From assembly GCA_034401795.1 (NCBI GenBank), contig CM067370.1:60738369-60802368 (forward strand): a stretch of DNA of 64,000 nucleotides, written 5' to 3'. The DNA comes from Chaetoderma sp. LZ-2023a. Lineage: Eukaryota > Mollusca > Caudofoveata > Chaetodermatida > Chaetodermatidae. The translations under genes and the position numbers were made by a program. Shown here in pieces: positions 3,771 to 45,008 of this stretch. Each line of letters starts with the position of its first letter. Position 1 is the stretch's first letter. The notes beneath the pieces are model-generated. The model ran no database searches. It was not told where the DNA came from and saw only the letters and a list, made by a program, of their open reading frames with translations.

Positions 3771-3934
3771 TAACCCTTACCACTCTGATGTCAATATTCT
3801 ATCTTTCTACTGTGTCAAGAGCAAAGAAACTGATGTGCATTTTTCAACAATTTTGGTGGACGATGTTGCTGTCAGTTCATCTTTTAATTTAATTAGAAAA
3901 TTAAAGATTTTGACACCAGAGTGGTAAGGTTTAA
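3771..3934. repeat. MITE, TTAACCCTTA ends, copy 2
   Basis: TAACCCTTACCACTCTGATG at the left and CACCAGAGTGGTAAGGTTTA at the right form the inverted ends. The interior shares TCAATATTCTATCTTT and GACGATGTTGCTGTCA with copy 1 at 3451-3651. Confidence 0.7.
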
Positions 3935-4645: not shown

Positions 4646-4840
4646 AACCCTTTCATCCATAAATACTAGAAAAATTATATTCTTTATGATATAAAACTTA
4701 TTTTGTTGAATATTTTGAAATTAATTTGACCCGAACCCGTTGTGCCTTAGGCCTTCCAGTCAAATTAATTTCAATATATTCAACTGTTTTACTGTATGGA
4801 TGTCTTGAAAATATAGGGAAGTCATCAGTGAAAGGGTTAA
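4646..4840. repeat. palindromic TTAA-type MITE (family P), copy
   Basis: Left end AACCCTTTCATCCATAAATA, right end TCAGTGAAAGGGTTAA, with an inner palindrome whose arms read TTGAATATTTTGAAATTAAT and its complement around a GCCTTAGGCC-like centre. Other full or partial copies are at 8251-8440, 32044-32260, 33105-33210, 45027-45238 and 51994-52205; inner-palindrome relatives are listed separately. Non-coding. Confidence 0.7.
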
Positions 4841-17409: not shown

Positions 17410-18105
17410 TCATTGACAAGAATCGAAACCGCAAACGGGAGAGCTTCCAGCAAGGAAATGGTAGGGAATATTTTCCCTTGGACTAGCTCGAATCGAACTC
17501 CGAGATGATTGAAAAGTTGAGAAGGAGAGGCTGGATTTCTCTAGATTGATGATCCAGCCCAAGTCAGTGGTTAGGGGAATGATGTAAACTAACTGCTGGT
17601 TGAGAGTTGATGAAGAAAGGATGCCACCAGACACTATTTGAGTAAATAGAAAGGGGGCAATCATAAGGCCGAAGGGAAGAGCACGAAACTGCCACACCTT
17701 GTCTCTGTAGGCAAAACGAAGATACGGCCGGAAGGATGGGTGCATTGGAATATGGAAGTAAGCGTGCTTCAGGTCGATTGAGCAGGTCCACATACCGATA
17801 TCTAGGGATGCAATCACCGACTGGATGGCTTCCATTTTGAATGAAGGCGTCAATATGACCTTGCTGAGTGTTTTGAGATTGATGATGGGGTGCCATCCCC
17901 CAGATTTCTTTGTGACTAGAAACACGGTGGAATAATACCCTGGATTGGTTGACCAATCCAGGACCTCCTCTATTGCCGACTGTTGAACTAACGATCGAAA
18001 CTCCTCTTCCAAGGTTGCTAATTTGGAGGCATCTTTGGAGACTAACCGCCTCGTAGGACGGAAATAATCCACTGATTGTCCCGAGACAGGGGGGGGCCAC
18101 TTATG
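17410..18105 (-). pseudogene. reverse transcriptase of DIRS-like element A, internal deletion
   Basis: About 220 codons: LVTKKSGGWHPIINLKTLSK, then MWTCSIDLKHAYFHIPMHP (first catalytic Asp in SIDLKHAYFHI), LPFGLMIAPFLFTQIV, then directly PLTTDLGWIINLEKSSL. The YxDD active-site block that should lie between the LPFGL and LGWI motifs has been deleted. Codons below about 17500 drift out of the RT frame. It overlaps the gag end, as is usual in DIRS elements. Confidence 0.85.
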
Positions 18106-19373
18106 CTAGAAATGACTCAGACAGGCCCCTACAGGAATGGAGGGATGAGAACATAGAAGACCCACCGGCAGAGGAGGAGAACGGGGTGGCGAGACCGGAC
18201 CGTCAAAAAGTTGTTGATAAGACTTCTTGAATGAACCACAATGACCTCTGCCTCGAGAAGACGACCCACGATTGGATGATGCGGAAGACCGGCCGGAGGA
18301 AGGCTCATAAGACTGAGGATGAGGATGAGCTTCTACTATTTCATCAAAACGGAACTGGCCATACACTGAAGATGATGATTTCTTCTGAGGCCAAGAAGGA
18401 GATGAAGTCGGAGAACTGGAGGCATCCGAGGCAGACCTACGACTGGAGGGACTCGAGAGACGGGTTCGATTTGAATTAACGAAAGGAAAGGATTGGGAAG
18501 GCTGACTTCTTAGCCGATGAATGATCAGAAGTGCAAAAGGGAATCTCCGAACGACATTTGGATGTGATATTAGGATAATAGCATCAGCTAATGACTTTCG
18601 AGTAGATTCTTTTTGGATTAATGAAGGAGCTGAGGTTCCAAAAAGATCTTGACTGAATGGATGAGCAGACACTAGTTGTTTTTTTAGTTTACGGGATAGA
18701 GATGCAGAAGACAAACTCTTTCCTACGAGTGTGATTAATAAAAGCCAAGGAACGAGCGATTGTATTAAGACGCTCTTGCTGAATCAGCCAAGGACTTATA
18801 AATAGAGGCCGGGACTGGATCGGAACTAGATGAATTAAGGAGCGACTCGGCTAACAGAGATTGGAAATTAGAAAGTTTGAACAAATTCCGAAAAGCCTTT
18901 TCCAAGCTACACAGATCGGACTAAACCAACAACAATGGAAGACGATTGAGGAATCCGAGACCCAATAAGCTCTGAGGTCGGGCCCAAAAAAGTTTGGACT
19001 GAACCAACATTAGCGAAGTCAACCTTGGATAAATGTAACAGTTTGTGGGACCCTGGGGCTACCAAACGAACATGAGAACCAGAAGTCATAGCCTTTGAAT
19101 AAAAATCCAACATATCAATTGATAGTGAATCCATAGGAAGGTGAGGTTGAGATTCTGAAACGACTGGTTGAAACAATGGGGAAGCAAAGGAACGTTGACT
19201 CCCGAACTAATGGAATTTTGCAAGACTGTGAAATGAATTTAAAAAATTCATACCAATCGGAATTTGAGGCCCTGAAAAGAAGATATTGAGAATTAGATGA
19301 GGAACCATCTTAAATAAAAGGGGATGAAACGGAAAATGAATCCTCCGGACAAGGATCAGAATATGTATCGTGG

Positions 19374-20437
19374 TAGGGCTGCGCGGTTTGGCTTACAGCC
19401 ATATCGGTTTCGATATGACTTTTCATATCGGTTTTAACCGAATATCGGTTTTATGGACATGAAACAAAAAATTTAAATGATAAAGATTAGCACGAAAACA
19501 GAACATATTTTTACGCCCTGATACATTCGTAACGTTTTGCGCCTTTAAAGCTTAATATACCTTATAATATCCATCATCGCGGGAGTGAAATTATTAATTA
19601 GACCGCCTAAATATTACGCACAGTTAAATGAACATCGTTTATTTTGTCAAAATTAATCATAAATCAGCAAAACAGGTTGCGAAAAGACGTAAATCATGTG
19701 ATTGTAATTAATTATGATGTAATTATCTCCCTTTCTTCTTTCATTTCCAATTCGGCCCGAGGACGAAATCATGCCTTGAAGAAAATATTAACTGTAATAT
19801 TGCGAACGCGAATTTCATAAGTTAATATGATATTGTGTATAGAAGATAACGTTTTAAAAACGGTTTGAGTAATAATTTTATTTAAAATTATATCCTAGTC
19901 AGCAAAATGTATTCAGCATTATATTTATTGGCGAGATTTTTATGCATTCGGGCGATTTAGTTTTGGGACGACCTTGCATTATGTTAATTTGTGGTGACAT
20001 AAATAATATGGATGCCGTTGTTTAGAAAGGTTTCCCCGATACAAATTTCAATGACAAATTCCAGCGTTAGTATTGTGTTTTATATTGCAAATTTATCTGA
20101 GACTCCCAGAGAAAAGACGAGTGGATATTTATTTAATTAATTCGCTGCTTGATTTCTCTCGGCGTACAGCGAGTTACATGGAGTTACACAATATGCGCAA
20201 TTGGGGCCACGTTCAATTATTAGTTGCCCCGAACATAGCTTAATGGAAAGTATGGCCATTATTATTCATTACGATTTTCATGCTCATTAGTATCTTTTAT
20301 TTTTAACAATCCTGATACGAAAAACCGAAAATATGTTCATATTCGGTTTTTCGATATTTATTTTTTATAATCGGTTATGAAACCATCAGTGCAGGATATC
20401 GGTTTTAAATATGGTATCGGTATATCGCGCAGCCCTA
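19374..20437. mobile_element. hAT-type MITE nested in DIRS element A
   Basis: Ends TAGGGCTGCGCGGTTTGG and, as complement, TAGGGCTGCGCGATATACC. Just inside are several ATATCGGTTTT/AACCGATAT units in both orientations. The flanks are TATCGTGG (19366-19373) and TATCGTGA (20438-20445), an 8-bp target duplication with one mismatch. It is 1,064 bp long and AT-rich with no transposase. Its removal restores the gag reading frame of the host element. Confidence 0.85.
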
Positions 20438-20657
20438 TATCGTGATCATCAAGAAGTGATTCATTGTCAAAAGAAATATTATCGGAAGGATAAGGAGATG
20501 GAGTGGGAATGGAATTCGCTGGATCAGGAATCGGAGGTGTTTCTGAGATTGAAGTAACTGGAACAGTTGAGCCTTGATGAGGAAAGAAAACACTTGAAGG
20601 TAATAAAGCTAGCAAAGATTTTCTAGCTGAAATAAAGGGATTGAACGAATCATGATT

Positions 20658-21044
20658 AGGGTTCGTACACCTTTCTGTGTGAAATTCCATGACTTTTCCA
20701 TGACCAAAATTAACAAATTCCATGACTTCCAGAGATAAATATCTAGTAGATTTGTGTTTATGATGTAGCTACATAAATTACGATCTATGTTGTTCTGTAA
20801 ATGTCTGAATATTGCGTCTTGCAACAACCAAGCCAGCTTTGTTTTGGTACGCTCTTGCCATAATTTTTATTGTATAGGGGTGATGGTGGTAATTTATGCC
20901 AACATATTTCCTTTATTTTTCATGATTAGCATTTTCCATGACTTTTCCATGACCTATGATGAAAAATGCTGATTTTCCATGACATTCCAGGGCTGGAATT
21001 TAAATTCTCAAATTCCATGACATTCCAGGACCCATACGAACCCC
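20658..21044. mobile_element. hAT-type MITE (387 bp) nested in DIRS element A
   Basis: Left end AGGGTTCGTACACCTTTCTG; right end, as complement, GGGGTTCGTATGGGTCCTGG. Both ends run into TTCCATGACTTTTCCATGAC-type units. Flanks TCATGATT and GCATGATG agree at six of eight positions. It interrupts the gag frame between IIM and NHDSF text. Ends of this type are familiar from hAT MITEs. Confidence 0.75.
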
Positions 21045-21529
21045 GCATGATGATAGAAAATGTTAACCTGAGACAGAAATTCATAAGGGCGATTTCACGA
21101 ATAATATCGTCCTTAGCAACTTCAGAGGCCAACAAGTCATGATCAGAAACAGAACCAGAAATATCAGAAAATAAACGGACTGAAGAAACTGGGTTTGCAA
21201 AACTTACCCTTCTTGAACGTTGTGGCTGATGAGAAAACTGCGGGTTAGATAAACCAGACTGGTGAAAATTTAAATATTTGAAGTATGAATAGGCAGAGAT
21301 CTAGAGTCCACAGTGGAGGTTACCGTTGACTGTGATTGAATGCCATATATTGCCAAAGACAACTTTGTAGTCAAACACGAACTTGGAAGAGAAGTGGGTG
21401 ATGGACCATTGCAAACACCAACTGGAGGTTGTGATTGACTAGAGGACTGCAAGAAATGACTGGCAAGTGATACCGAGTCAAATGATTGAGAAGGCCAGAC
21501 AGAGGTAGAGTTCATTTGATTGCTAGTAT

Positions 21530-22084
21530 TCACCAGGAAACTGTACCTAGGTGCTGAATGATTTGAATGGCTGGAATCAAAAAACCTGAAAATCCTGCTA
21601 GACTTTGATAAAACTGAAGATCAGAAGCAGAAGACTGAAAACCGTTAGTTCTAAAACCGGAAATTAACAGACCAGATGTCCCGAAACCAGGAGGACATGA
21701 ACCGGACGTACTGCAACCAGAAGGCTGAAAAACTGAAGTCTGAGAACCGGAATATGAGTGACTGGAAGTACCCAAACCGGAAGACCGCATACCGGAAGTA
21801 CTAAAAACGGAAGGGTGATAACCGGATGTCTGAAACCCAGAAGACGAAAATCGTGAATCGGAAATGGAAGATCCGGAAAATTTATGACCGGAGGTCCTCG
21901 CACCGGAAGGAGGTTCACCGTAAGTAGATGAACCAGAAAAATGATCGGAAAAACGAGAACCGGAAGTGTCCAAACCGGAAACTGCCGACCCTGAAGTACC
22001 AGATGTGGTACTAGCCTGGCTGAAAGTACCTGAGCCGGAAAGTCCCAAACCGGAAGTAGTTAATGAAACACCGGAAGAAGCCAA
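21530..22084 (-). repeat. in-frame Ser/Gly-rich degenerate repeat within DIRS A gag
   Basis: About 184 codons built from loose 6-10-residue units of the kind GFGTSGLLISGFRT, corresponding on DNA to repeated AACCGGAAG steps every roughly 24-30 bp. It is probably a low-complexity disordered linker of the gag-like protein. The unit is variable, so the repeat is old. Confidence 0.7.
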
Positions 22085-23320
22085 ACCGGAAGACGAAAGC
22101 GAGGTGACAGGTGTAATCCGGTAATTGACACCTTTAAAGGAAATAATGCTGGAACTGGAATCAGACCCTTTCTTATAGGCATCGGCTCACCTCCGGGCCC
22201 AGTACTAAGACCAGATTTTATACCGGATGAAACAACTGCGGAAAATGAGGTACTAGGATGAAAATCTGGAAAACCCAAAGGAGATTCTACAAGTCCCAAG
22301 CCCGCAGAGGACACAAAATCGGACGAACGGTCTTGAGAAAAATAAGGAGAATAAGAGGAAAGTTTCTGACTCAGAAAATACAAAAATTGACCAGCATGCC
22401 AAGGCTGAAATTCTGCATGAGAATTTAGCTTCGAAAGATCTGGTCGAGAAAAATGCCGAGACGAAAAACGCGGAGCGGTATGACAAGCGGAATGATGAAG
22501 CTGGATTTCTGCAAATGCATAAGGATCACTCAGACCCACAGAAACCATAGGTGGACATGGCGCCTTAGAAGGATTTTGCAGATCGGACAGATCCACCTTC
22601 TCTTCGGTCCACCCTGCTCTCTTATCTGAGATCCTAGTGGTCACACCAGAGGATAAGGTTGACTCTGTGACCTTCTTATACCCATTGGAGTCAACCCTGC
22701 CTACCACCTCTGGTGTGCCGAGAGAGTGGGCTATAGTTGATGAACCGGTCAGCTCCTCCTCTTCTTTCTTCGGCGAATCCTCCTCATCTGTAGACGCCAG
22801 TACAACAATGCACGAAACTTTCCTCTGTTTTGATAAACACTTATGCGGATTAAGTGCACGATCTGTCAAGGGAATCGGCTGGGAAGAAAACCTAGTTTTT
22901 CTTTTGCACGTGCCTGCAGAAGACCCCGAGCCCTCGTCAGTCGACCCGCCAGAAGGAGATAAACTCTCCTTATGAGAGGGCCTCTGATGAGGGACCAGGG
23001 CCTTCAGCGAGGCCAGCTATAATTTGATTATTCTAGGAGACTTAGCCACCGGACTGTAAACCAGAGCTGTTAAAGCTATTTGGTCAGAGGAAGGCCCCCC
23101 CCCACCTGCCACTTGGTTGTTAGGGATTCTAGTAGTGGAATCAATTGGAGCGGGAGGGGGGAATCAGAGCCCCAAAGAGACCAAAGGGAGTCATTGCATG
23201 TTTCGAACTGGAATGGTGGCCATCCCGCACAAACCGAGCACTTGTTAGATCTCGAACATGTACTGCATAACACGCAGGGATGTTGACGGTATAAGACAGT
23301 GCTTCCTGTCACAATCTTTG

Positions 23321-23695
23321 TTTGAACAGCGCACCACCGGGTTGTACACCTGTTTAGAGGCAGCCTAAAACAGTAAAAAAAGGCTGTTAAGTCATTTGAC
23401 TAAAGGCCATATATTAAAAACAAACCATGCAACAAATGGACTCATCCGTGAAGCTTGAGAAAGCCTATGCGAATGAAGATAATCTGAAAATTCCTGAAGG
23501 AGTGATCTCCATAAATAAGGGCCGTAATAAGAAGCCAATTTTAAAAACAAAACGGACAGAGCCGAAAGGCTAGATAGGGCCATGACGTATTGTCGAAATT
23601 ATTTATGTATATCCAGGATAGAAACAACCCCATAGAGGAATAGGGCCTTCATATAAGCCAATTATTAATAAAAACGGACTCAGCCATAGGCTTGG
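23321..23695. other. 5' flank of DIRS element A with a short direct repeat
   Basis: AAGCCAATTTTAAAAACAAA...ACGGACAGAGCCGAAAGGCT and AAGCCAATTATTAATAAAAA...CGGACTCAGCCATAGGCT form two copies about 125 bp apart (23533 and 23655). This may be the 5' untranslated or terminal region of element A, but no matching 3' terminus survives to prove it. Confidence 0.45.
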
Positions 23696-23734
23696 TATGT
23701 ATGTATGTATGTATGTATGTATGTATGTATGTAT
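23696..23734. repeat. (ATGT)n microsatellite at the SINE tail
   Basis: About nine GTAT units directly abutting the 3' end of the tRNA-derived SINE that follows. Confidence 0.9.
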
Positions 23735-23919
23735 TTTTATTTTATTGACGCACTGGCAACGTGCGGCTTCAATTTCCATGTGCTAACTTAGCCGACAGTG
23801 CTGCACCCGTTAGTTTAATTTGTTGATCACCATCTCCCGGTCGGGGGATCGAACCGTCATCCTGCAACTCCGCATAGCATCAGCAACCAGGCATCTTTCC
23901 ACTGGACCACCGCACCAAG
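23735..23919 (-). mobile_element. tRNA-derived SINE
   Basis: The minus-strand head (23919-23840) looks like a tRNA: GTGCGGTGGTCCAGTGGAAA with an A-box-like TGGTCCAGTGG, then GGTTCGATCCCCCGACC as the B box. The body ends with CGTTGCCAGTGCGTCAATAA and AATAAAATAAAAATACATAC, running into the (TACA)n microsatellite. It has no acceptor stem pairing and sits in a repeat, so it is a SINE rather than a tRNA gene. Confidence 0.75.
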
Positions 23920-24067
23920 ACTAAAAGTCAAGGATTGGCCGACCAGTTTTCACATGTCTGATATACTGACACACTGACGATTCATATGGGACTATCTGTG
24001 GATGCATCTGTCACAATCAATCCTAGGCTTTTACGCCTATTGTACTCTGACTCCAGCACGGCTCTGG

Positions 24068-24134
24068 CAGTATATGTATTTTTATTTTATTGACGCACTG
24101 GCAATGTATGTATTTTTATTTTATTGACGCACTG
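24068..24134 (-). repeat. two extra copies of the SINE 3' tail
   Basis: TATGTATTTTTATTTTATTG followed by ACGCACTGGCAA occurs at about 24073 and again at about 24105, identical to the tail at 23730-23760. The second copy is followed directly by another long (TATG)n run. Confidence 0.8.
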
Positions 24135-24221
24135 GCAATGTATGTATGTATGTATGTATGTATGTATGTATGTATGTATGTATGTATGTATGTATGTATG
24201 TATGTATGTATGTATGTATGC
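24135..24221. repeat. (TATG)n microsatellite
   Basis: About 21 tandem TATG units between the SINE-tail duplicates and the 3' end of the L2-type LINE. It gives a meaningless YVCM-type frame. Confidence 0.95.
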
Positions 24222-24648
24222 ATTTATATAGCACCAATTCCAGAATTAACTGCCCAAAGGCGCTTTACAAAAGTTAAAGCTAATTTAAAATAGTGAAATA
24301 TGCTTTTTGGAACAAATGGGTTTTTAGAAGTTTTGAAAGCCTCAACATTGTTGCTGTTTTGAATGTTGGATGGAAGGTCGTTCTAAAGTTTTGGTCCAGC
24401 TATGGAGAAAGCACGCTCTCCAATGACAAGATTGGAATTGGGTACTACGCAGAGTAGCTGTTCACTCGATCTTAGTGCTCTCGGTGCTATTCGTCTAGTT
24501 ATGAGTGATGATAAATACGGTGGGGCTAAGTCATGTAGGCATTTGAACACGAAAAGTGCGACCTTAAATTCGATTCGTTGTTCCGCTGGCAGCCAGTGTA
24601 GCTCTTTGAGTACTGGTCGAATGTGTTCATGCACTTTTGTTCTGGTTA

Positions 24649-26374
24649 TTACCGGGCTGCCGTATTTTGTGCTCGTTGGAGACGTTGTAACTGCGATGAT
24701 GATATGCCTGTGAGAAGAGAATTGCAATTGTCCAGCCTTGATGTAATGGTTGCGTGGACGAGGGTATTGACTGCATTATAGTCTAGCAATTTCCTAATTT
24801 TACCGATGTTGCGAGTGTTCAGAAATATAGATTTACAGATCGACGTCACATGGCTTTCCATAGACATAGTATTGTCAAAGACTACGCCAATATTTCTCGC
24901 ATTAACACTAAAAGGAATGTTGGCGCCACCGATATGAACCGATTCAAATTCTATTTTTGGTCTCAAGTGACGGGAAGCGATCATAATTATTTCTGTCTTT
25001 TTCTCGTTGAGTTGCAAAAGGTTGTTTAACATCCAAAGTTTCACATCGCGAATACAGTCCTCCAGTATTTCCCGGGCATTCAATTGGTTGGGTGTGTGAA
25101 AAGCTAGATACAGCTGAGTATCATCGGCGTAGAAGTGATAGCTCATTCCACGTGCATCTAGAAGTCGTCCCAGTGGTGCCATGTAGATAGTGAATAATAT
25201 AGGCCCGAGCACAGACCCCTGCAGCACACCAGAGAGCAACTCATACTGAGATGACCTAGCTTCATTTAATGTGATTGTTTGATAGCGACATGTTAAATAG
25301 GATTTGAACCAACTCAGTGATGTACCAGATATGCCCAGTTCTGCTAGTCGTGATAGCATAGTTGTATGATCTATCGTATCGAAGGCTGCAGATAGGTCTA
25401 GGAGTGTTGATAGCACACACATACGATTGTCCATAGAACATAATATATCGTTCTGCATGCGTAGTAAAGCCGTCTCTGTGCTATGAAGCTTGCGGTAGGC
25501 ACTTTGGTACAACTCACGTAGGTTATTTACTTCTAGGTGATTCTGAAGTCGTTCTGCAATCACTTTTTCTAACAGTTTTGATAGATATGTTAGATTCGAT
25601 ACCGGTCAGTAGTTGTTCAGAAGGTTAGAGTCCAGAGATGGTTTTTTGAGCAGTGGTATCACGTTTGCTGATTTAAAGATAGTAGGCACAGAGCCACTCT
25701 CCATGGACATATTTATCATATTTGTAATGACTGGTGCAAGGTCGGCGATACAGTCTTTAACCAAGTGTGTGGGTATTGGGTCTAGAATACAGGACATTTG
25801 TGGTGATTTCCTGATTAGTGTTGACACCTCACTGATGGAAGCTGGTCGAAACTCTATCAGAGGACATTCTGATACTGGTACATCGTTCAGAATCTGTACT
25901 GAATAATCTGGATGTCTCAAAATGTTTGCACGAATGAGTTCGATTTTTTCAGTGAAAAACTGTCCAAAATTGCCACCTAGCTCAACTGAATTGCTGTGCT
26001 GTGGTAAGGTATTTCGTCCTTTATCTTTGTGAAGGAGCCTGTTGAAAACGGAGAACAGTTTTTTCTGGTCTGCTTTGTGTTCGGACACTAATGTTGAGTA
26101 GTAATCCTGCTTTGCTACAGTTATCATTTTGTTAACCACTTTACACTGATCAGCATATAACTGTAAATGAACGTGTAGATTCGTTTTGCGTGCAAGGCGT
26201 TCGTATTTTCGTGAGTCGTTTTGCTTCCTTTATCTCACTGTTGAACCATGGTGAATGTGGACGAACAACGATTGTTTTATGGTTTAGGGGAGCATATTTA
26301 TCAAGAATGGCTCGTAGTTCATTGTCGTACTGGTTCACGAGTTTGGACATGTTCTCAGATGGATTCGTGCACAT
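24649..26374 (-). pseudogene. reverse transcriptase part of the L2/CR1-like ORF2
   Basis: Pieces 26374-26150, 26139-25606 and 25563-24649 in shifted frames. Motifs: SPQMSCILDPIPTHLVKDC (RT palm start), LLDLSAAFDTIDH (catalytic Asp), SGVLQGSVLGPILFTIYM, YHFYADDTQLYL (YADD active site), LLQLNEKKTEIIMI and IGVVFDNTMSMESHV. The frameshift at about 25605 splits the LLNNY|RPVS block. The 24383-24727 frame continues the thumb and C-terminus (ELHWLPAEQRIEFKVALFVF). Confidence 0.85.
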
Positions 26375-27639
26375 ACTACTTGCACGTCGTCTGATCTGAT
26401 TGATTCAATGGGAAGTGAACGAAGTCGCCTATAAGTAATCGTTTTTCGTGGCAGAGCAGGTTTTGGAAGAGAAACGTCGAATGTTATAAATGCATGATGA
26501 GACGCGATTGCGCCTGCATCAAGATCAACATTACTGACGACAGATTCATCTGCTCGTGTTATAATTAAGTCCAGTAGATGTCCTTTACTATGGGTGGCAT
26601 GTTTCACATGTTGTATAAGACCTGATGTTTCTAATAAAGCCCGCTTAATTGATGCACTATGATCGTCTGCAATTTCCATGTGTACGTTAAAATCACCGAG
26701 TAACAGTAAATTTCCGGTACTGAAAGTATATCAGTCAAGTAGGGAAGACACTTCTTGGAAGAATTCTGACGAGGGTGGGTTATGTTTTCCAGGTGGCGGC
26801 CGATATATTGTTATGAGTCTTAATAGGACTGAGTTATGCATAAACTCGCATTCAAGACAGTCAAATGTGTGATGTGATGGCGATTTTATTACTTTAAGAT
26901 CGAACGCCTCTTTATATAACACAGCGACTCCACCCCCTCTTCTCCCATGTCTGGGGTTGTGCTTTAGCTGGTACCCGGTGGGTGTGAGGTCACCTATTGT
27001 TATATTATCACACTCAGTCTTGAGCCAAGTCTCTGTTATTGCAACAATATCAAGGTCCCTTTCAAGTATATAGTCCACAATACTAACAGTTTTATTGCAC
27101 ACTGATCTAGCGTTCAATAATCCACCCCTGCACATGTCAGCTGGGCGAGGTTCTGTAGGTACATGGGTTAAGTCAATAGGGTTTGGTACGATGGATACTT
27201 GAATCAGATTGGCAGTACATATGCCTTGTCCAGATTTACACTTTGGTCTGCTCTTAAGTGATGTTATTAAAGTAGGTATTGTTCGCTGTCTTTTTCTGCC
27301 GGCTCGACACCCACGTCTTGTAGGGTTAATAATACCGTATTTGTGAAGACAGTTCAACACGCTGATATCCAATTTGTTCGAATATCTGTGATTGTATTGT
27401 GAAAGCCGTATTGCTTTCAGGTCCGACACCGAGTATTTAATCATTGTTGTTAGTAAACAGTTCACTATACTTATCCTACTACCTGAGCAGTGCTCACTAC
27501 CTTGCTGAACTACTAATGGCCGCCTATACTCTGGTTCTATTCTAACCACGTTGAAATTTAAATCACTAACGATAGGTAACTTCCACAGAATAATCAATAA
27601 CTGATATAAGAAGCACAATTTATATTTACTTAGAAACAT
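26335..27639 (-). pseudogene. apurinic-type endonuclease part of the L2/CR1-like ORF2
   Basis: Two in-frame pieces (27639-26731 and 26730-26335) separated by a single TGA. Key motifs: LLNARSVCNKTVSIVDYI (Asn of the active site), DIVAITETWL (catalytic Glu), RRGGGVAVLYK, RLITIYRPP, LLLLGDFNVH (Asp/Asn pair) and, near the end, IASHHAFITFDV (the Ser-Asp-His-like box, changed to SHH). The endonuclease layout is complete, so decay is modest. Beyond 26400 the frame is lost. Confidence 0.8.
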
Positions 27640-28199: not shown

Positions 28200-28945
28200 T
28201 AATAAATACCAGGATCTATATAGCAAATAATATTAGCGGTAACGTATCTTAGGGGTAGGTATAACTCCATGAAAAACTGACGAAAATGTCTGAAACACGA
28301 ACTTGCTCTGTAACTCCTTATACTAAATCGATGTACCGATTTTCCCTCAAATATATCGAAGGGGTGCGAAAAAGTGCAAAAAGCTGATATTTCTCGTCGA
28401 AAGGGGGGCATAACTCCATCAAAAATTGACATATACACCTGAAACGCGAACCTGGTCTGTAACTTCTCATAACAAAGCAATGTAACAATTCTCAGTAGAA
28501 TATCTTGAAAGAATGTGAAAATGTGCAGAAAACTAATATTTTTGGTATTTCATAAGACGAAAGGGGGCATAACTCCATCGAAAATTGACGAAAATGTGTG
28601 AAACTCGAACTTGCTCTGTAACTTCTTATACTAAAGCGACGTACCGATTTTCCCTTAAATATCTTGAAGGAGTGCGAAAAAAGTGCCAAAAGCTGATATT
28701 TTTTGTATTTTGTAAGTCGAAAATGGCACAACTCCATCAAAAACGGACGCACACGCCTGAAACTCGAACTTGGTCTGTAACTTCTCATAACAAAGCAATG
28801 TACCAATTCTCAGTTGAATACCTTGAAGGACTGTGAAAAAAGTGCGGAAAGACAACTGCGACAGACAGACAGACAGACAGACAGAGTGCAAACCTATAGT
28901 CCCCCACCCCCACGGTTTTACCGGTAGGGTACTAATAATGCTAAA
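28200..28945. repeat. mollusc-type repeat: four about 150-bp units plus CAGA tail and ACCGGTA terminus
   Basis: Units with CATAACTCCAT-x-AAAAATTGAC, CTGAAACTCGAACTTG-type text, TCTGTAACTTCTTATA and TTGAAGG-GTGCGAAAAAGTG recur around 28258, 28400, 28565 and 28730. They end in GACAACTGCGACAGACAGAC, a (CAGA)n run (28863-28885), GAGTGCAAACCTATAGTCCC and a GGTTTTACCGGTAGGGTACT-AATAA close. It is non-coding; the similar frames on both strands reflect the repeats. Confidence 0.75.
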
Positions 28946-34329: not shown

Positions 34330-34690
34330 GGAATGAAGGAAATTTCAATTTCCCTTTCTCCGAGATCTAACAATACTCACCATTCTATTACTTCTGACAC
34401 AAGCTGTCTTGGATAGCTGGCCCTAGGACTCTAGACGTAGTAAGCTTTACTAGCTCCGGAACTGGGTACTCGGCTCCCAATAGCCGAGTACCCGTTTGCC
34501 ATGAAGCTCATATTGTTTGCATAGCCACCAAACAAGAGATACCCATGGCGTGCCTCCATGGGGCTGGGAGGCAGGGTCCGTAATAGAATGGTGAGTATTG
34601 TTAGATCTCGGAGAAAGGGAAATTGAGATTTCGTTCATTCTCCTTCGATCAATACTCACCATTCTATTACTTCTGATATACACCAGATTT
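34330..34690. repeat. inverted-repeat cluster at the 3' side of DIRS element B
   Basis: A block of about 72 bp (34330-34402: GGAAATTTCAATTTCC, CTTTCTCCGAGATCTAACAA, TACTCACCATTCTATTACTT) recurs inverted at about 34570-34640. A third, direct, partial copy (CAATACTCACCATTCTATTA) is at 34651-34678. Between the arms is a perfect 12-bp hairpin, GGGTACTCGGCT-CCCAAT-AGCCGAGTACCC (34464-34493). Such mixed inverted and direct repeats are expected at DIRS termini, and it lies downstream of the recombinase of element B, but the other end of B was not found to match. Confidence 0.6.
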
Positions 34691-35170: not shown

Positions 35171-35940
35171 CTATCGTTTCAAAACAGCTGAAGCGAGTGG
35201 ATTGGCGGAGTCTGACACATCCCTCATATAGTAATCCGTGAAAGAGGACTCACAGTGCCATTGTGCAACAGCCATGATGTCCTCTAACGGAACACCATTG
35301 TAAAGGGCGGTCGAGGCGGCTATTCCTCTAAGGTCGTGTGCCCTTGCGCATTGCACCTGGTGCCTAGTCGCAATCTTATGGGTAGTCTGAATACATTCGA
35401 CTACCCAACGAGAGATAGAATCCATGGATGCGGCGCCATATGGCTTCTTATGGCAGATTCACAATGTCTATCATTAGACCGTAACGAGTCTGTCCATCTT
35501 TTGTACTTAGTACTGGCACTGGCATCACGATCAAACCTAGTTAGTTTCGGTATAATGATCAGTTTGCCGGGATATTTCAAAGATTGATTCTTTGACATAA
35601 ACTCTTCTCTTGGCAGTAGACGCAGACCCTCTCCAGAGACAATAAATCGGTCTCTCTCTGCGGAAAGTGCATGGATATCACTGCGCCTTCTAGCTGAGGA
35701 AGCTGTCAATAGAAAAACCGCCTTTAGAGTCAAACGCTTTAGACTAGCCGAACGCAACGGTTCGAAAGGGTGCTTCGCCAGTACATTAAGAACTAAAGAT
35801 AGACTCCAGGCTGGAATGACTACCGGTTGTCTCGGTCGGAGATTGCTCATTCCCTTCACCATCACATTTAACTGGGCCACCTCTGGACTATCCCTGTTGG
35901 CTAGACAAGGGACAAATGATGCCAAAGCTGACTTGTATCC
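35171..35940 (-). pseudogene. tyrosine recombinase of DIRS element B, catalytic part
   Basis: Frames 35925-35401 and 35425-35171, one frameshift apart. Core-binding text KSALASFVPCL and VKGMSNLRP, then SSARRRSDIHALSAE (first catalytic Arg), RAHDLRGIAAS (His-x2-Arg), AVAQWHCESSFTDYY (Trp, and the nucleophilic Tyr pair). All catalytic boxes survive. Just upstream, at about 35962, is a TAG and an apparent deletion between GKG and IAGYK. The N-terminal piece lies on the other side of element 1 (41264-41330: TTSEDFTRQAADFIAAVRR). Confidence 0.85.
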
Positions 35941-36018
35941 AGCAATACCCTTTCCTTCACACTAGTCTGCAAATTTGTTAACATTGTTGTTATATGACTT
36001 GAAGGTTGACATCCTTCT

Positions 36019-36919
36019 GGGTCATTCCATATAAGGACCAAAATTTTTGAAATCCGTCAAGTCATAGTTTCAGATTTCCTTCAAACTTTGTCAGAGTAAG
36101 CATATGTATGTATTAACAGGAAATTCCAAGTATTATAGTGAAAGGTTAAATACTTTTTGAAAACTGGCCTATCCAATACCCCCTGCCTAAAATTGACAAA
36201 AATTTGTAACAAAATTTCTATGTTTGAGGCTTCATATCTCACCGACTACAGTGCTCACAATACTAGGTATTTTTATTTTAACAGTCTGGTCACCATAGTT
36301 CGAGAAAATCACAAGCATTTTGTGCTGACCTGTTTTAGGCATGTATTAGGGGTCGTCAAAAATGCCAAAAAGTGTGATTTTTCATATTTTAATCCAAATT
36401 TGGTGATGCCGTAAAATGTATTTGTATTTGGTTTACACAAATGATTTCTATCCTGTTAACTAGAGCTACTGCTACTTTAGTGATATTTATTACCTAATGG
36501 CAAGATATGCTCCGCAAAAATTTTGTGGGAGCCATACCCCCACCCCTGTTCACCAAAATGGGGTGACTTCATAACATGTTTTTTCAAAATAACCCCTTTC
36601 AATTTTTTAAATATTTTGGTGAATGTTATATATATGGTCAATGGTTACAGGGCCAAAAGGTTCACTCTTACATTTGTTTCCTTTTAGAGCTATGGCAAAT
36701 ACAAAATCTGATATTTTTTCAAAAACTTGTATGATATTCGATTTTGGGAGGTTAATAATTTTAAAAGTATACACTCTAGAAGTATGAAACAAGAGATGTA
36801 GCGCGTTTCCCTGCCTTATTAAAAGAAACAACCAGCATTTCCCTTTTACAAAATAGATAAACATGGATTTTAGAGATGTCAAAACCTTACTTTGTTAAAA
36901 TTTGACATTTTTGTGGGTA
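36019..36919. repeat. left terminal inverted repeat of element 1
   Basis: Aligns by eye, with substitutions and small gaps, to the complement of 40375-41263: GGGTCATTCC; TTTCCTTCAAACTTT-TCAG; GAGCATATG-type text; TTTGAGGC-TCATATCTCA; CACCCC-TTCAC-AAA; CATTTGTTCCCTTTTGGAG-like text; and TTTTAACAAAGT-type sequence at the inner end, ATTTGACATTTTT (36899-36911). The 85-codon plus frame here mirrors the 77-codon minus frame in the right repeat and is a by-product. Confidence 0.75.
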
Positions 36920-36951
36920 AACTACAAGTCATTATTCAACAACATTTTCAA

Positions 36952-37060
36952 TGGGAATAACATATTGCCTGGAGAATATTTAAAAAACAATTTGACTATA
37001 AGTTGTTGCTGACTTAGCCATCAATAATTTTCAGTCAAATCATTTTCAAAATATACACCA
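36952..37060. repeat. inner palindrome of family P inside element 1
   Basis: GAATATTTAAAAAACAATTTGACTATAAG-type left arm (shown here in part: ACAATTTGACTATAAG) and a TTTTCAGTCAAATCATTTTC right arm around GCTGACTTAGCCATC. It lies just inside the left terminal repeat of element 1. Confidence 0.55.
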
Positions 37061-37496
37061 GGTACAGTAAGCTGGTCGAGCTGCAACAGCTCATCACTCA
37101 GTCCTGAGTTATCCAGTGTTAATAAAGACTGAGAGATTTCATATCTAGAGAAAATAACTCAACCTTCAGAGCTTTGTATATAATTAGGTCAATTGCTGTA
37201 ATAGACATAGGTAGTGAGGTGATATTGATTAGTCACATGGTCTCAGTTTTTCTCAGAGATCTGCATGCAAGTATTGCTACCAACAAGAGTTCAGTCAAGC
37301 ATTTTAAGTGATCAAGATTAGGCAGCATGACCAGTGAAAGTGTTTAATAATTACTGCTTTGAAACATTGACATTGTTGCTGATACACAAATGTTTAGATA
37401 TTTACTTTAGAAATTTAATAATTCACTATACATTTTAATGATAAATTAGGCCTTTTAATTTGAAAAGTGTAAACTTTGACTAGGACACGTTGCACA

Positions 37497-40017
37497 ATGG
37501 CTGAATTACCAGAGACATTTTGTTCAGTTGGACGTCTCACTAATGATAAATGTCATAAGTTTACGGATAAATGCTCTGTAAATGATGTTGTACAATTGAC
37601 GGCTACAGATAAAACACTTGTTGCAATGAGAAGTGGCCAGAGTGAGGATAGTTTAGAAACAGTGTGCTGTTGCCACAAGAAACACTATCTGCATATATTC
37701 CCGATGATGAAGCAGAACACTTCATGTTGTGATCCCCTAAAAGTTCACAAAAAGCTTATTAAAAAGGGACTAGTTAATATAGATCAAGAAATTGTGGCAT
37801 TAATACAGTCGAAAACTAGAGAGAAAACAACCTGGCCAAAAGATTTGCCATCATTGTTTGCAGAAAATTAATAACCTGACAGATTGTAGTGACAGTGAAC
37901 CGGAATCAATGGCCATAGCAGATACTTTGTACAGTAATGCTGAATGCCTCAACTCTAGTTTCTCAGCAGTTGGAGTTTCTCCCCTAAAGAGTGTCCATTC
38001 AGAAAGGAAAGTATCATATGGTAAACGAAAAATCAAACAAATGGCAGAAGCAACAACAAGTCACATGGCATCCCACCTAGGTTTTCCACCTAATAAATTA
38101 GTTGCTGACACTTCACAAACTGAATGTACATGTGATTCTAAGTTAGATGTGGACTACTTGGTATCGAACATGAATGAAAAACTGTCTGTGTCATCATGAA
38201 ATCAAAAGATACAAGTATTGACTATTACACCTAAATCATGGTCGATAGATAAAACTGTTCAGGTTTTTCAAGCATGTGGTGTTACGCGTTATATGGTGAA
38301 ACAAGCCAGACAACTTGCGCAGAATGATGGAATACTCGCTGATCGTGAAACCTTTAAAAGAAATAAGCTTGATCAGCATACACTAGATAGTGTTAATAAC
38401 TACTACCAAGATGATACTGTATCTAGACTATTACCCGGGAAAAATGATTTTGTTACTATAAGAATTTGTGGTACCAAAGAACATAAGCAAAAACGGCTAA
38501 TCCTGACAAATTTGAAGGAAGTACATGCTAATTTCAAAACAGAAACTGGACTTGGTTTCTCTAAATTTGTTGGGTTAAGACCCAAATGGTGTGTAACTGT
38601 TTCTTCTAGCGGCAGCCACAATGTTTGTGTATGCGAAAAATACCAAAATGTAAAGTTTATGGTGGATGTTATCTCTGAAGACTATCATAACCTAATTGAC
38701 AAATCTGTATGTGACAGTAGTTCTAGAAATTGCATGCTGCAACGATGTGAAAAGTGTCCAGGAACTGCATTTCTCAAAACTTACTTAGAGCAAGACCTTT
38801 ACGAGCACATGGATGAGGATGACATCATTAAATTCAATGAATGGGTATCCACAGACCGAATTGAAATCATGCGCCGAGAAGTATCAGTTGAAGATTTTAT
38901 TTCTATATTATGTCAACGGATCCAAGAATTAACACCACATTCCTTCATAGCGAAATCTCAAAGTGAATTCTTGAAAGCGTGCAAACATGATTTAGATGAC
39001 ACTACTGCCATTGTTGTTCTCGACTTTGCTGAAAATTACAGCATTATTGTGCGAGATTGTGTACAGGGATTTTATTGGAACAATTCTCAAGTCACGATAC
39101 ATCCTTTGGCATTTTATGTTAAGGCTTATGGAAAGTTGAATGAAGAAAATGTATGCTTCATCTCTGAGTGTCTGAAACACGAAACAAATACTGTGTACTG
39201 TTTTCAGGAGATTTTTACAAGATATTTGAAGGAAAAGTATCCCAATATTCATATAATTAAATACTTTAGTGATGGGTGTGCAGGACAATACAAGAACTTC
39301 AAAAACTTTATTAATGTCTGCCATCATTATTCAGATTTTGATATTAAGGCAGAATGGCATTTCTTTGCTACCAGCCATGGTAAAGGTGTTTGCGACGGTA
39401 TCGGTGGCACAGTGAAGCGCTTAGCCGCAAGGGCTAGTCTGCAAACAGCGCTTATACAAAATGCTAGTGAATTGTATGAATTCAGCCAACAGAACATAAG
39501 CAAGATCAAGTTCTTCTTAGTTAGTAAAGATGAGATCCAGACCCATCATACAATGTTGGAAGAGCGGTATCTCCTTGCCAAAACAGTGCAAGGAACCAGG
39601 TCATTCCATTCGTTTGTTCCAAATGACACTAACTCTATCACAGTAAAGCGAATTTCAACTGATGATGTTTCATACACTCGGTCATTTTCTAACACACAAC
39701 CTGGTATGTCATCAGAGATTCAGAATTTAAATATCCCTATGGAACTGTCTTTGAGTGACTATGTTGGTGCATTGTATGACAAAAATTGGTGGTTTGGCAT
39801 AGTGTTAGAAATTAGTCTAGAAAATGAGGACTGTCTCATTTCGTTTATGAAGCCGCATGGACCAGCTCGATCCTTTAGTTGGGCAAGGCGCACAGACCAG
39901 TGCTGGGTTCCTTTTTGTGACATTCTAAGTAAGGTGTCAACACCATTGACAGCAACTGGCCGGCAGTACACTTTTCCACAAACTGATATCGACTTTATAA
40001 ATGGACTATTTAAATAA
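37497..40017 (+). pseudogene. transposase of element 1 (about 840 codons; one frameshift, one in-frame TGA)
   Basis: Start ATG at 37497 (MAELPETFC). The N-terminus has a Cys/His cluster (VCCCHKKHYLHIF, TSCCDPL). A frameshift near 37865 moves to the frame of DCSDSEPES; a TGA at 38197-38199 is the only stop before 599 open codons (38218-40017). Numbered from 38218: HTH-like CGVTRYMVKQARQL (about 20-33); GFSKFVGLRPKW and SHNVCVCEKYQNVKF; RCEKCPG zinc-knuckle-like motif; VLDFAENY with D269; FSDGCAGQYKN with D352; HFFATSHGKGVCDGIGGTVK with H387 and D393; then a C-terminal YDKNWWFGIVLEIS module (about 520-560) resembling a Tudor/SH3 barrel. D269, D352 and D393 are my candidates for the acidic triad. 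The long intact frame suggests recent activity. The reading frame could be a domesticated gene, but it sits exactly between terminal repeats. Confidence 0.8.
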
Positions 40018-40374
40018 TTTGGAGGAGCGGTATATGCTGGATCATGTACCGTATCATCAATTATTGCTGAGGTATGTAGTATTATGTACTATCTCTTAAC
40101 ACTTTTATATTATATCATGTGTATTAACCAATGCCTGTCTCAGTTTATTAAATAATTCCATGAAATGGGTGACATTTAGGCATACTTTAGTATGAGAGAT
40201 TACACATATTGGCCTGGTCGCAGTGTGTCAAAATTGTCTATAAATGGCCATAGAAGTCCATGTAGCTGTACTAATATGACCATAATATACCATTCAATGT
40301 CCACCTATGATGAAAAAGTATCTAAAATGCTAAAGTGGAGATATTTTAAACTTTTTAAAACAAATTAGATTGTC
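40018..40374. other. 3' untranslated part of element 1
   Basis: AT-rich sequence between the transposase stop and the right terminal repeat. No further frame and no clear polyadenylation signal beyond AT-rich text. Confidence 0.5.
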
Positions 40375-41263
40375 GCGAAAAATGTCAAATTTTAACATAG
40401 TCAGGTCTTTGGGTCTAGAAAATCGATGTTTATGTATTATATAACCAGGGAATGCTGATTGGTTCTTCTAATATAGCAGGAGAACTGGTTGTATCACTTG
40501 TTTCATGCCTCTAGGCCCTATAATTTTAAAATTATTAACCCCCAAAAATGGAATATCGTACAAGTTTTACAAAAATATCACATTTCTAATATGCCATAGC
40601 TCCAAAAGGGAACAAATGTAAGAGTGCAACTTTTAACCATGTAACTATTGACTATATATCTACCATTCACCAAAATAAAATAAAAATTGAAAGGGGTTAT
40701 TTTGACTTAATAGGCGATGAAGTTGGCCCTCTTTTGTGAAAGGGGTGGTGCATTGGGCCCCCACAATTTTTTGATGAGCAAACCTTGCTGTTAGTCAGTA
40801 AATATTACTAAGCTAATATTAGCTCTAGTGAACTGGGTAGAAATCATTTAGTTACAGCAACTATAATATACATTTTACTGTATCACCAAATTTTGTTGAA
40901 ACAGGAAAATTAGCTGTTTTTAACGTTTTTGGTGACCCCTAAAACACACCAAAAACAAGTCAACACATATTGCTTGTTATTTTCCTCAAGTATGCTGACC
41001 AGAGCATTAGAATGAAAAGATCTAGTATTGTAAACAGCATATTGGATGAGATATGATGTCTCAAACATTGGATCTGTGCTTGAAACTTTTGTCAATTTTA
41101 GCATAGGGGTCTTTGAGAGGGCATTTTTCAAAAAGTATTTCACATATCAGTTAAAAAATTGTCATGCTCAACTAAAACATCCATATGCTCACACTGAGAA
41201 AGTTTGAAGGAAATCCGTGACAATGAGTTGACGGGCATTGGTCCATCTTATACGGAATGACCC
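40375..41263. repeat. right terminal inverted repeat of element 1
   Basis: Complement of 36019-36919. It begins at AAAAATGTCAAATTTTAACA (about 40379) and ends TACGGAATGACCC at 41263, followed directly by the TTCT duplication. Confidence 0.75.
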
Positions 41264-41266
41264 TTC

Positions 41267-41794
41267 TCACAGCTGCGATGAAATCAGCAGCTTGTCGTGT
41301 AAAATCTTCCGACGTGGTACATTGTTTGATAACATCCACACAGTCAATTTGAACATTTCGGGACACTCGTGTAGGAAGCGTCCCTTGGCCTGGGAGATTA
41401 TGTTCGGAATCTCGGGTAACTGCACTGGATTGTCCACCAGCAGATCTAGAAGATCCGTGAACCACGACCTGCTGGGCCAAAATGGCGCTACTAGCAAGAC
41501 CAGGCATGGTTCCTCTGTGATCTTCACCAATATCTTCAGCAGAAGAATGGTGGGTGGGTACGCGTAAGCATGCATCCCTCTCCAGCTTATCGTCAGAGCG
41601 TCTGTATCGACAGCATTTGCATCTGGAATCGGCGAGACATAAGTCATGATTTGAGCATTTTCCTTTGTGGCGAACAAGTCCACGTTGGGTTTGCCCCAAT
41701 GCTCGAAGATCCTGTGAAGAACTGGAGAGTTGAGAGACCATTCTGTTGGCAGAATCCTCTGTCTGCGAGACAAAGCATCAGCCAGAATGTTCAA
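41267..41794 (-). pseudogene. RNase H end and connector of DIRS element B
   Basis: NILADALSRRQ (end of RNase H), VDLFATKENAQIMTYVSP, SWRGMHAYAYPP, LVAPFWPSRSWFTDLL. This conserved block follows RNase H in DIRS-type polyproteins. The recombinase then starts in the next frame (TTSEDFTRQAADFIAAVRR), overlapping the end of this one. Confidence 0.75.
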
Positions 41795-41815
41795 TCGCCC
41801 AGGAATGTTAGCTGC

Positions 41816-42268
41816 TTACACTACTGAGTAATTCCTGCACCATTCAATCAAGTGCCACACTTTCATACATAGTGTGGGTGACTTGGTCCCGCCTTGGCGA
41901 TTTATGTATGATACTACTGTCGAGTTGTCCAACCGTATCAATATCGCCTTGCCCCTGACTTTTGGAAGAAACTTTTCCAACGCCAGTTCCACTGCCATCA
42001 TTTCCAACAGATTGATATGCAGCTGGCTCTCCTGGAGAGTCCATGTGCCCGAGACCTGGTGTTCTCCCAGGCAGGCCCCCCCCCCCAACCCCTCCAGCGA
42101 TGCATCCGTGTACACGGACAGCTGGGGGTGGGGTAGGTGCAGCGAAACTCCTACTAGGAGATTCTGACGCTTTTTCCACCAAACAAGATGCGACATTAAC
42201 GGCTCAAAAACTGACACCAGCTTTGACAGGGGTTCTGTTCTCTGTTTCCACAGAGACATCAGATACAA
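41816..42268 (-). pseudogene. RNase H of DIRS element B
   Basis: 150 codons with LSVYTDASLEGLGGGACLG (first Asp), LHINLLEMMAVELALEKF (Glu), ILIRLDNSTVVSYINRQG (second Asp) and KVWHLIEWCRN. All catalytic positions are present. It connects in frame-shifted fashion to the RT upstream and the NILADALSR block downstream. Confidence 0.85.
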
Positions 42269-42269
42269 C

Positions 42270-43325
42270 TGGATAGGTCTTCACATCAGAGCAGCGTACG
42301 GGATTACCTGCTCCATGGAGACCATCATGCCCAGCATCTGAAGAAACCGCCTCGCCTGAATGTGGTTTCCCAATCAAAAACTCTTGAGGATGGCTAACAG
42401 AGACACCACTCTGGGCTCTGATGGGTAAACCCTGCCCTCCTCGAGATTGAATCGCATCCCCAAATAAACGAAATGTTGAGTGGGTGTCAATTCGGATTTC
42501 TCCTTGTTGACTATCCAGCCTAGATCTGAAAGTAACTTCAGAGTCAGAGCAGTAGCCACCTCTAACTTGGCTGGCGTGTCTGTCTTGATACGCCAATCGT
42601 CTATGTAGGTGTGAAGCGCCACGTTCTCTTCTGAGAAACGCTGTCACCGCAAGGACCACTCTGGTGAAAACCTGTGGAGCTGTTGACAAGCCGAACGGGA
42701 GGACTACAAACTCCCATACCTGATTCTGAAACGCGAATCTCAGAAACCTGTGACAACTCCTGTTTATTGGAATGTGGATATAGGCATCTTTCAGATCGAT
42801 CGATACACACCACATACCCTTCCTCAATCCTGCCATTACCAACCTCGGTGTTTCCATCTGAAACCGAGGCATATGGATAAACCAATTCAATGGCCTGAGA
42901 TTGAGAACGGGTCTCCACACACCCCCCCCCCCCCCGTGCTCTTGGGAACAAGGAACATGTTTGAATAGAAGCCTGGAATGTTCTGGTTTGCTGGTTTTAT
43001 TGCTCCCTTCAGAAGCAAACCTGACACTTCCTTTTGAATGGCTTCTAACTTGTCTGGCTCTCTTGGTACGGGAGTCCAGACTGGTGCCAAAGACAGATTT
43101 TGTGGCGGAAAATCCCACCACTCCGGCATGTATCCCTGGGGTAACCATCCTAGGACAAGACTGTCTGACATCACACCTCGCCACGCCTCTACGAAACGCA
43201 TGAGCCTTCCACCCACTATAGACGTATTGACACCTAATGCGGGTGTCTGGCTCGCAATCCGCACCGACCCCCCTCTTGACGAGAGAGAACCATTTTGGTC
43301 TTGGCTTGACCAGTCTAACTGGCAC
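42270..43325 (-). pseudogene. reverse transcriptase of DIRS element B
   Basis: RT motifs spread over frames: GFYSNMFLVPKSTGG (about 42990), VWRPVLNLRPLNWFI, MWCVSIDLKDAYIHIPI (first Asp), VVLPFGLSTAPQVFTRVVL, then in a shifted frame ALHTYIDDWRIKT (YIDD active site, about 42610), LSDLGWIVNKEKSELTPTQH and LGMRFNLEEGRVYPS. Upstream (about 43230-43100), GGRLMRFVEAWRGVMSD and VLGWLPQGYMPEW form the conserved DIRS RT lead-in. At least two frameshifts, one in a C/G homopolymer near 42918-42934. Confidence 0.85.
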
Positions 43326-43329
43326 CGCT

Positions 43330-45008
43330 GTTCCTGTTGCACAGGTGCGGTCCAGGCAGATGCGAAGGGAGCCCTCGCACCGTCAGGTACGATCCACTCC
43401 CTTCTTAATGCCCTTTGAGGACTTACCCTTCCCCTTCCCGCCTCTCGGGCGGTCGGTGGCAACATTTGGGTGGGTAGGCGCCTCCACAACCTTCTTCGCC
43501 GGAGGCGGCTGCGAAGACCTAGTAGAAACAGAAGCAGCACTAGGCTTGGCTTTCGCCTTGCTTTTATGCTTCTTAGAATGGTGTCCGGTTAGCAGCTTGG
43601 CTACAGCCCCTAGTGCATGTGCCTGTCACACTAGTTCCAGCTGCAGATTCATCGCTAACCGATTCTGCGAGATGCTGGCAGTGTCTTCTAAGATGGCCCA
43701 CGCTTGGCCACTAGAGATGCTAGGGCCAGTAGGGGGCATCCCAAGAAGACGCTCCCTAACAGCCATAGCCGGACGCATATGGTCAAGACCATCTGCCTCC
43801 TAGACTTTGCCACTCGCGCCTGCACCTTTGCCAATGCATCCATAGACAGCACCAGGCCATCATTCACGCATGATAGCACCACAGGTGGCACAGGGTGGCC
43901 TGCCCCCGCTTCAGCCCACACCGACTGAAGAAGGCGATAAGAATGATTGACAGCACTCATTGCTGCCCTCTCCCCTCATCGCATAGGGACAGGACTTCAT
44001 CATGGTGCACCTGGGACTTGTCCACCAGCGCCGGGGCGGGGCCACCTGCTCCAGCACTCTGGACTCCCAGCGATCCTCCTCAGTGAATGCTGGGACAACA
44101 CCATATCTGTCGTATTCCACACAGGGTATACGGCACCTTGCCCGCACCTCCCTGTTCAAATAGCATCCAACAACTCCATAAACCGTGGATCCAGTCCAAC
44201 AGACTTGATCTGGGCTACGGGCAAAATCCTCGTCCTAATCGATACCACCGATGGACGAGGGGCAACCACAGACGGGTCCACCCTGGCTAGCCAAACCAGT
44301 CTGTCTCCGATGATGACACTCCCGTGAACACATCACCCATTGACGTGCTCAAGGGCCTCCCAGCAACGGCCTCCCGGCTAGGAGCCACTGCTGATACGCC
44401 AGGAACTCTGGTACCGTACGGTTCCACCGCCACCCCATAGAAAACACCAGTCCATGGAGTAGGTCCACCCGTAACGGTTGAGGAACCGTGGCCAAGCACG
44501 GGCGCCAACGGCACCCCATGCCTGGACCAGGCGAGATAGGTGTATACCACACCTGGCCAGCCACACCCATCACAGTGTCGATTGGCGGCAAACCAACCAT
44601 CACTGAACCGGTGCCCGGTACCGGAGTGGCCTCAACCACGGGCGGAGCCGCTGTCCTGGCTTGCGCCAAGCCAGACAGATGGAGGACGGTTCCGTCCATG
44701 ATGGAATCAACCTCCATGCTCTCCACCCACTGCATCCCATGCCTGACGGACCGACCACCGCTGCTGGACCACCCGGAGTTGGCCCCAGAGAGACAGAACC
44801 CATCAGGCCGGAGGCCGACAGGACTGCCAGGGAGCCATACGAGATGGCTCCCTCGGTGGCCAGTCCAGAGACTACCCTGCAACTTTCGGTAGCAGGGACG
44901 ACACCAGCATGGGAAGGACGCTATGCACGAAGCAGAAGAAGAGGAAGTCACTGTTACTATATGCATAAAGTAAATAAGCTTAACTAACTTTGAATATATG
45001 TTGATCAT
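43330..45008 (-). pseudogene. gag-like ORF1 of DIRS element B
   Basis: Minus frames: 45008-44349 (Pro/Gly/Val-rich, VESMEVDSIMDGTVLHLSGL), 44159-43911 (ARCRIPCVEYDRYG), 43960-43688 (NHSYRLLQSVWAEAGAGHP, VLSMDALAKVQARV) and 43540-43400 (basic, Ser/Lys-rich gag end). The same protein, from MEVDS through the VEYD-YG block to NHSYRLLQSAWTEAGA, is encoded on the plus strand at 59.9-60.95 kb (fragment C), so the family is present twice. Frames shift several times; not functional. Confidence 0.75.

Follow-up and report, generated by a model that had tools for sequence, protein, structure and literature searches.

The Sola superfamily of DNA transposons reportedly goes back to Bao et al. in 2009. Within it, Sola2 elements begin with GRG and Sola3 uses TTAA as target; TTAA is also the target of Kolobok. 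Published work describes Sola elements as encoding a transposase with three aspartates (DDD), generating 4-bp target site duplications, measuring mostly 2-9 kb and carrying inverted repeats of 11-1124 bp (PMC10741241), and includes Sola3 in the superfamily (PMC4455052). In D. fasciculatum and P. pallidum, the 4-bp duplications of Sola2 families are rich in A and T (AWWT; ATAT, AAAT, ATTT) and their inverted repeats measure 12-21 bp (PMC3627910), and a bivalve study lists 14 curated Sola2 transposons, so that Sola2 is common enough in animals (PMC10294476). Among other DNA transposons, Academ is assigned a 3-bp duplication and piggyBac the target TTAA (PMC5199201). Here we describe a complete transposon, assigned to a family designated F1, in a 64-kb stretch of the Chaetoderma sp. 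LZ-2023a genome (contig CM067370.1); this whole stretch is referred to as the window. The element is almost certainly a cut-and-paste DNA transposon, and we are highly confident that it works like a Sola element. Probably it is a Sola element or very close to one, most likely of the Sola2 type, a placement that follows described features rather than sequence comparison. The element and its borders are as follows.

36019-41263, plus strand: complete DNA transposon of family F1, 5,245 bp (inverted termini, 4-bp duplication, 18 further copies from the same genome aligned end to end)
36015-36018, no strand: left target site duplication, TTCT (sequence at the junction)
41264-41267, no strand: right target site duplication, TTCT (sequence at the junction)
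36019-36912, plus strand: left terminal inverted repeat of about 894 bp (when reverse-complemented, the right arm matches it at about 75% identity)
40378-41263, minus strand: right terminal inverted repeat of about 886 bp (pairs with the left arm at about 75% identity)

The first-pass annotation of the window had already delimited this element, with inward-facing GGGTCATTCC termini at both ends and TTCT on each side, and its coordinates proved exact to the base. The 10-mer GGGTCATTCC has exactly two matches in the 64-kb window, at 36019-36028 on the plus strand and at 41254-41263 on the minus strand, which face inward. Two matches were obtained in none of 100 shuffles, and a chance origin of the termini was rejected. 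Words similar to GGGTCATTCCAT, with up to two mismatches, occur five times in the window when both ends are counted, as compared to 6.2 expected, i.e. at chance level. The inverted arms, which pair element positions 1-894 with 4360-5245, extend over roughly 890 bp and thus far beyond what had been annotated.

Insertion of the element could be reconstructed from its empty site. For this purpose, 150 bases of each flank were joined with a single TTCT, placing the junction at base 150, and this query was searched against the genome, yielding 3,211 candidates, of which 40 were scored. All 40 scored places match across the junction, covering query bases 75 to 299 or 300 with 93-94% identity, and query and genome are of equal length in 39 of them; the exception, C15:99550527, is shorter by one base on the genome side. 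This match of the joined flanks to empty places directly demonstrates insertion with a 4-bp duplication. Upstream of base 75, the query is matched by another 39 pieces, whose ends lie about 81 bp more distant. Hence, compared with the other copies, the left flank of the element lacks about 81 bp near 35943-35946, some 70 bp from the junction, a difference separate from the insertion.

The insertion interrupted a gene which we take to be a DIRS recombinase, a label suggested by the first-pass annotation.

35401-36014, minus strand: left part of the DIRS-like gene split by the insertion; the rest lies in frame 41172-41741 (open frames, junction codons, empty site)

Inspection by eye of the minus strand places a single AGAA (TTCT) in frame between ...GCT GTG and AGA AGG ATG TCA..., and the codons AAVRR|MSTFKSYNNN, said to be restored upon removal of the element, do hold. 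A TAG follows 18 codons on, counted by eye from the AGA at the junction, showing that the interrupted gene has itself decayed. Judging from its neighbours, the gene would belong to a DIRS-like retrotransposon at 35401-43540 on the minus strand. The reverse transcriptase frame of that element matches Pfam RVT_1 (E 8.4e-08), and the recombinase frame 35404-35925 gave no Pfam match. Directly to the right of the transposon copy in L022, minus-strand frames resembling the reverse transcriptase and recombinase of another DIRS element were likewise recognized by eye (L022:6579-8521). At least two of the 19 full-length copies introduced below thus seem to lie next to or inside DIRS elements.

To survey further copies, the host genome (2.44 Gb) was searched with the 599-aa protein of the longest open frame. 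This search yielded 3,043 first-look candidates, the best 73 of which were scored and found to be 97-100% identical over the full query. Twenty copies were fetched, and 18 that gave a single end-to-end alignment were scored together with the window copy (19 in total); L009 and L024, which did not, were left out, and the 4.8-kb stretches L001-L008 (L001 being the window copy) do not include both ends and were not scored. Every one of the 19 copies starts with GGG, and 17 are flanked by an exact 4-bp duplication, with a longer match in none and with 17 distinct sequences. The cut-and-paste lineage with 4-bp duplications other than TTAA, which the first-pass annotation had postulated and proposed to check in genomic copies, is therefore borne out, and two further families described below add to it. 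A target preference with twofold symmetry is only suggestive, as the symmetry observed for the 17 sites is also attained in 36 of 2000 column shuffles. Mean divergence among the 19 copies is 1.0% (range 0.65-1.3%), indicative of a recent burst, in a sample that was chosen by protein similarity and is hence biased to young, intact copies; for the same reason the ratio of non-synonymous to synonymous polymorphism (pN/pS, 0.555) was not used as evidence. The two arms within one F1 element are about 25% apart, yet whole copies differ by about 1%, which indicates that the arms are not homogenized by conversion. Among the best 73 scored copies, 35 have, by our count, a stop-free frame of no fewer than 846 aa.

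The genome was additionally searched with a typed probe, which gave 2,216 candidates; 150 stretches, F1 copies among them, were scored. The L022-type core was aligned with 31 loci picked for variety, 20 of them by hand from the table of scored stretches, resulting in a core alignment of 32 rows. L022 itself was dropped, being identical to the reference row, and L035 was not entered, being nearly the same as L034. Positions in the protein refer to the intact gene of copy L022, which is open throughout at 2878-5403 and comprises 842 codons from its ATG.

37497-40017, plus strand: broken transposase gene, 842 aa in copy L022 (comparison with L022)
38218-40017, plus strand: longest open part of this gene (599 aa), which includes the three aspartate motifs (open reading frame)
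39022-39024, plus strand: codon for D512 (L022 numbering), the first conserved aspartate, in DFAENY (31 of the 32 rows have a letter here, in every case D)
39271-39273, plus strand: codon for D595, the second conserved aspartate, in YFSDG (again D in each of the 31 rows, out of 32, that have a letter)
39394-39396, plus strand: codon for D636, the third conserved aspartate, in HGKGVCDGIGG (invariant in all 32 rows)

The coding region of 599 residues recognized in the first pass is thus a real frame, but represents only the 3' part of the 842-aa gene. Compared with L022, the window copy is missing 6 bp in frame, contains one stop and is 2 bp short in a GA run. No single frame of this copy still codes for the full protein, and the copy would need protein supplied by intact copies. 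The 2-bp shortfall in the GA run is common to the window copy, L013, L017 and L020 (4 of the 19 copies) and perhaps reflects a slippage hot spot or a subfamily.

The three aspartates are spaced D-82-D-40-D. As D512, D595 and D636 are invariant and no invariant glutamate follows E515 in the stretch examined, the pattern is of the DDD type. In its first half, the core consists of a hydrophobic strand with DFAEN (D512) at its end, followed by two strand-like stretches and a helix-like stretch; a strand with SDG (D595), a helix-like stretch, the strand EWHFFATS, HGKG-x-CDG (D636) and another helix-like stretch make up the second half. Read by eye, this order would correspond to an RNase H-like transposase with the third acidic residue on the last helix. 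The N-terminal 130 residues contain the Cys/His pairs VC-x2-HKK, CCDP-x2-VH and PGQK-x-C-x2-C, recognized by eye in both F1 and the related family F4, and this region is probably zinc-binding. At the C-terminus, FM-x-P-x-G-x-A-x2-FSWP is common to F1, F3 and F4 and partly kept in the F2 copy L030.

Related families are present in the same genome. At 80% identity, the core alignment resolves into 11 clusters, whose representatives are 42-76% alike. Proteins of family F3 (L033, L034 and L035) are 38-39% identical to the intact F1 protein; the elements of about 3.05 kb end in GGGTCATTCCAT or GGGTCATTCCAG and are flanked by the duplications ACAT, GGCT and AGCT (3 of 3 loci). The arm blocks of L034 measure 273 and 29 nt, and its frame, which has no N-terminal Cys/His part, begins at the inner end of the arm. 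Near the inner ends, the F3 arms carry short repeated words of the TTGACCTTG type in mirrored arrangement (L034:428-461 and L034:2777-2809), which are possibly inner binding sites for the transposase. Family F4 (L039 and L040) shares 44% protein identity, with a frame of 860 aa in an element of about 4.8 kb, and its arms of about 730 bp are about 95% identical to each other. The F4 ends read GGGTCATTCCATCTCAAATCA, apart from a single base change on the left in L040 and on the right in L039. Both loci show a duplication: TACT, and ATAT, which is uninformative as it lies inside an AT repeat. Family F2 (L030 type) is 46% identical. Its ends were judged from the right side, which agrees with the other families: the right-end word GAATGACCC was found in L030, L032 and L036 of seven loci searched, and GGGTCATTC in locus L029 falls inside the match, away from any end. 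In F3 and F4, the homologous protein thus comes with terminal repeats and 4-bp duplications. For elements devoid of a transposase, the Repbase rule groups those with the same duplication length and with positions 1-11 alike allowing one mismatch, and under this rule F1, F3 and F4 would group together (PMC4455052).

When compared by description, F1 and its relatives resemble Sola2 in 4-bp duplications, a DDD transposase, lengths of 3-5 kb and terminal inverted repeats, and GGG as first bases would be compatible with the GRG at which Sola2 elements begin. At the level of the superfamily, likeness includes 4-bp duplications at 17 of 19 F1, 3 of 3 F3 and 2 of 2 F4 loci (one of the latter uninformative), and three aspartates, as judged from conservation alone. 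Sizes and arms are within the ranges given in PMC10741241, i.e. 5,245 bp with arms of about 890 bp for F1, about 4.8 kb with about 730 bp for F4, and about 3.05 kb for F3. Because the DDD pattern, 4-bp duplications, lengths of 3-5 kb and long inverted repeats match the descriptions of Sola, we file the element as Sola-like. The first-pass annotation could match it to none of the 4-bp lineages, but the DDD pattern, 4-bp rule, size and long arms fit Sola (PMC10741241), a candidate it had named itself, and leaving the type unassigned was too cautious.

Several points weigh against the Sola assignment. It was made by resemblance to published descriptions. The catalytic role of D512, D595 and D636 would follow from their conservation and order, yet E515, D523 and D616 are invariant as well in the 32-row alignment. 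Two of the 19 copies, L011 and L025, have no duplication at all, which may have been lost by recombination or mutation. Finally, the amoebozoan Sola2 families have AT-rich duplications and inverted repeats of 12-21 bp (PMC3627910), whereas here AATT is the sole duplication out of 17 to conform to AWWT, and the arms span about 890 bp. Because the AT-rich duplication is not found here, we do not file the element with the D. fasciculatum and P. pallidum families. Of the other Sola types, Sola1 has different ends. It is alike in 4-bp duplications and DDD, according to the superfamily-wide statement in PMC10741241. The TTAA users Sola3, piggyBac and Kolobok are DNA transposons too, but were ruled out since TTAA is absent from all 17 duplications.

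Alternatively, the GGGTCATTCCAT ends and 4-bp duplications could mark an undescribed superfamily of DDD cut-and-paste transposons apart from Sola, which we consider unlikely. The searches speak in its favor. No convincing match was obtained in Pfam, NCBIfam, PHROGs or PDB sequences, and with E up to 10 the intact protein had no Pfam match. Hits taken as chance were six Pfam families from three A1 members (one member each, best 0.016, DUF7717), ten PHROGs families (one member each, best 0.015) and PDB 3uf5 (E 0.025). A further hit, to the predicted transcriptional regulator 3by6 (E 0.0033, residues 274-347), is either chance or a faint hint at a helix-turn-helix. A 12-row profile had no match in PDB, nor was there a PDB sequence match to any transposase. 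By the motif patterns used, no relative was detected in viral contigs or prokaryote genome contigs. The strings DFAENY, FATSHGK and HGKGPCD were not found in the literature searched, where SHGKG occurs in 12 papers, their titles dealing with other topics. However, absence from Pfam says little, because we know of no Pfam model for Sola. Furthermore, all superfamily-level Sola features examined are present, and the bivalve record cited above argues in the same direction. The earlier surmise that the lineage may be known only from uncharacterized proteins agrees with the database results. It is equally doubtful that the GGGTCATTCCAT-ended families, with at least 11 core clusters in one genome, constitute a superfamily of their own outside Sola1-3. 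Its modules would be the Cys/His N-terminus (F1 and F4, but not the F3 copy L034), an RNase H-like DDD core with HGK-x2-CDG-x-GG and the C-terminal motif shared by F1, F3 and F4.

Membership in another known superfamily with 3-4-bp duplications, i.e. Ginger, CMC/Chapaev or Academ, is very unlikely. Duplications of 4 bp are known for some of these, which the first-pass annotation had also named, but the ends are GGG here, as opposed to CAC in CMC/Chapaev and TG in Ginger. Ginger carries an integrase-type (rve) domain, and neither this nor another transposase domain of Pfam was matched by the window frames or the intact protein. Academ is given a 3-bp duplication in PMC5199201, and a 3-bp match was seen in none of the 19 copies. 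That the element is a passenger moved by an unrelated system, with a reading frame that is not its transposase, would be in line with the frame-shifted window copy, but is hardly credible given that the same type of protein lies inside the same ends in families only 38-44% identical and that copies with a full open frame are abundant.

For the Sola-like element, we propose a mechanism that builds on the observed ends, 4-bp rule, empty site, many near-identical copies and invariance of the three aspartates. Intact copies would produce the 842-aa transposase, whose Cys/His-rich, putatively zinc-binding N-terminal region and helix-turn-helix-like stretch may bind the GGGTCATTCCAT ends and inner sites within the arms. 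In the putative RNase H-like core, D512, D595 and D636 would hold two metal ions and cut the element out. The core would then join it to both strands of the target with a 4-bp stagger, and subsequent gap repair would yield the 4-bp duplication.

Elsewhere in the window, retrotransposon pieces occupy 17413-27639 on the minus strand, including two reverse transcriptase frames (17413-18072, 24652-25563) and, at 26734-27639, a weak endonuclease frame that falls just below the Pfam cut-off. An inverted repeat at 34331-34640, with 61-nt arms that are 97% complementary and 188 nt apart, is perhaps a short non-autonomous element. Minisatellite-like tandem arrays with units of about 105 bp and 159 bp are located at 965-1698 and 28398-28845, respectively.

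Taken together, the element is a real, base-exact and recently active transposon, ordinary in kind unless it fails to match Sola in sequence. Should the protein turn out not to be Sola, an abundant transposon superfamily would still be unnamed. This young, base-exact family offers a type of transposon for which, to our knowledge, there is neither a Pfam model nor a solved structure, and with its near-identical copies the DDD chemistry of Sola-type elements becomes accessible to direct testing in cells.

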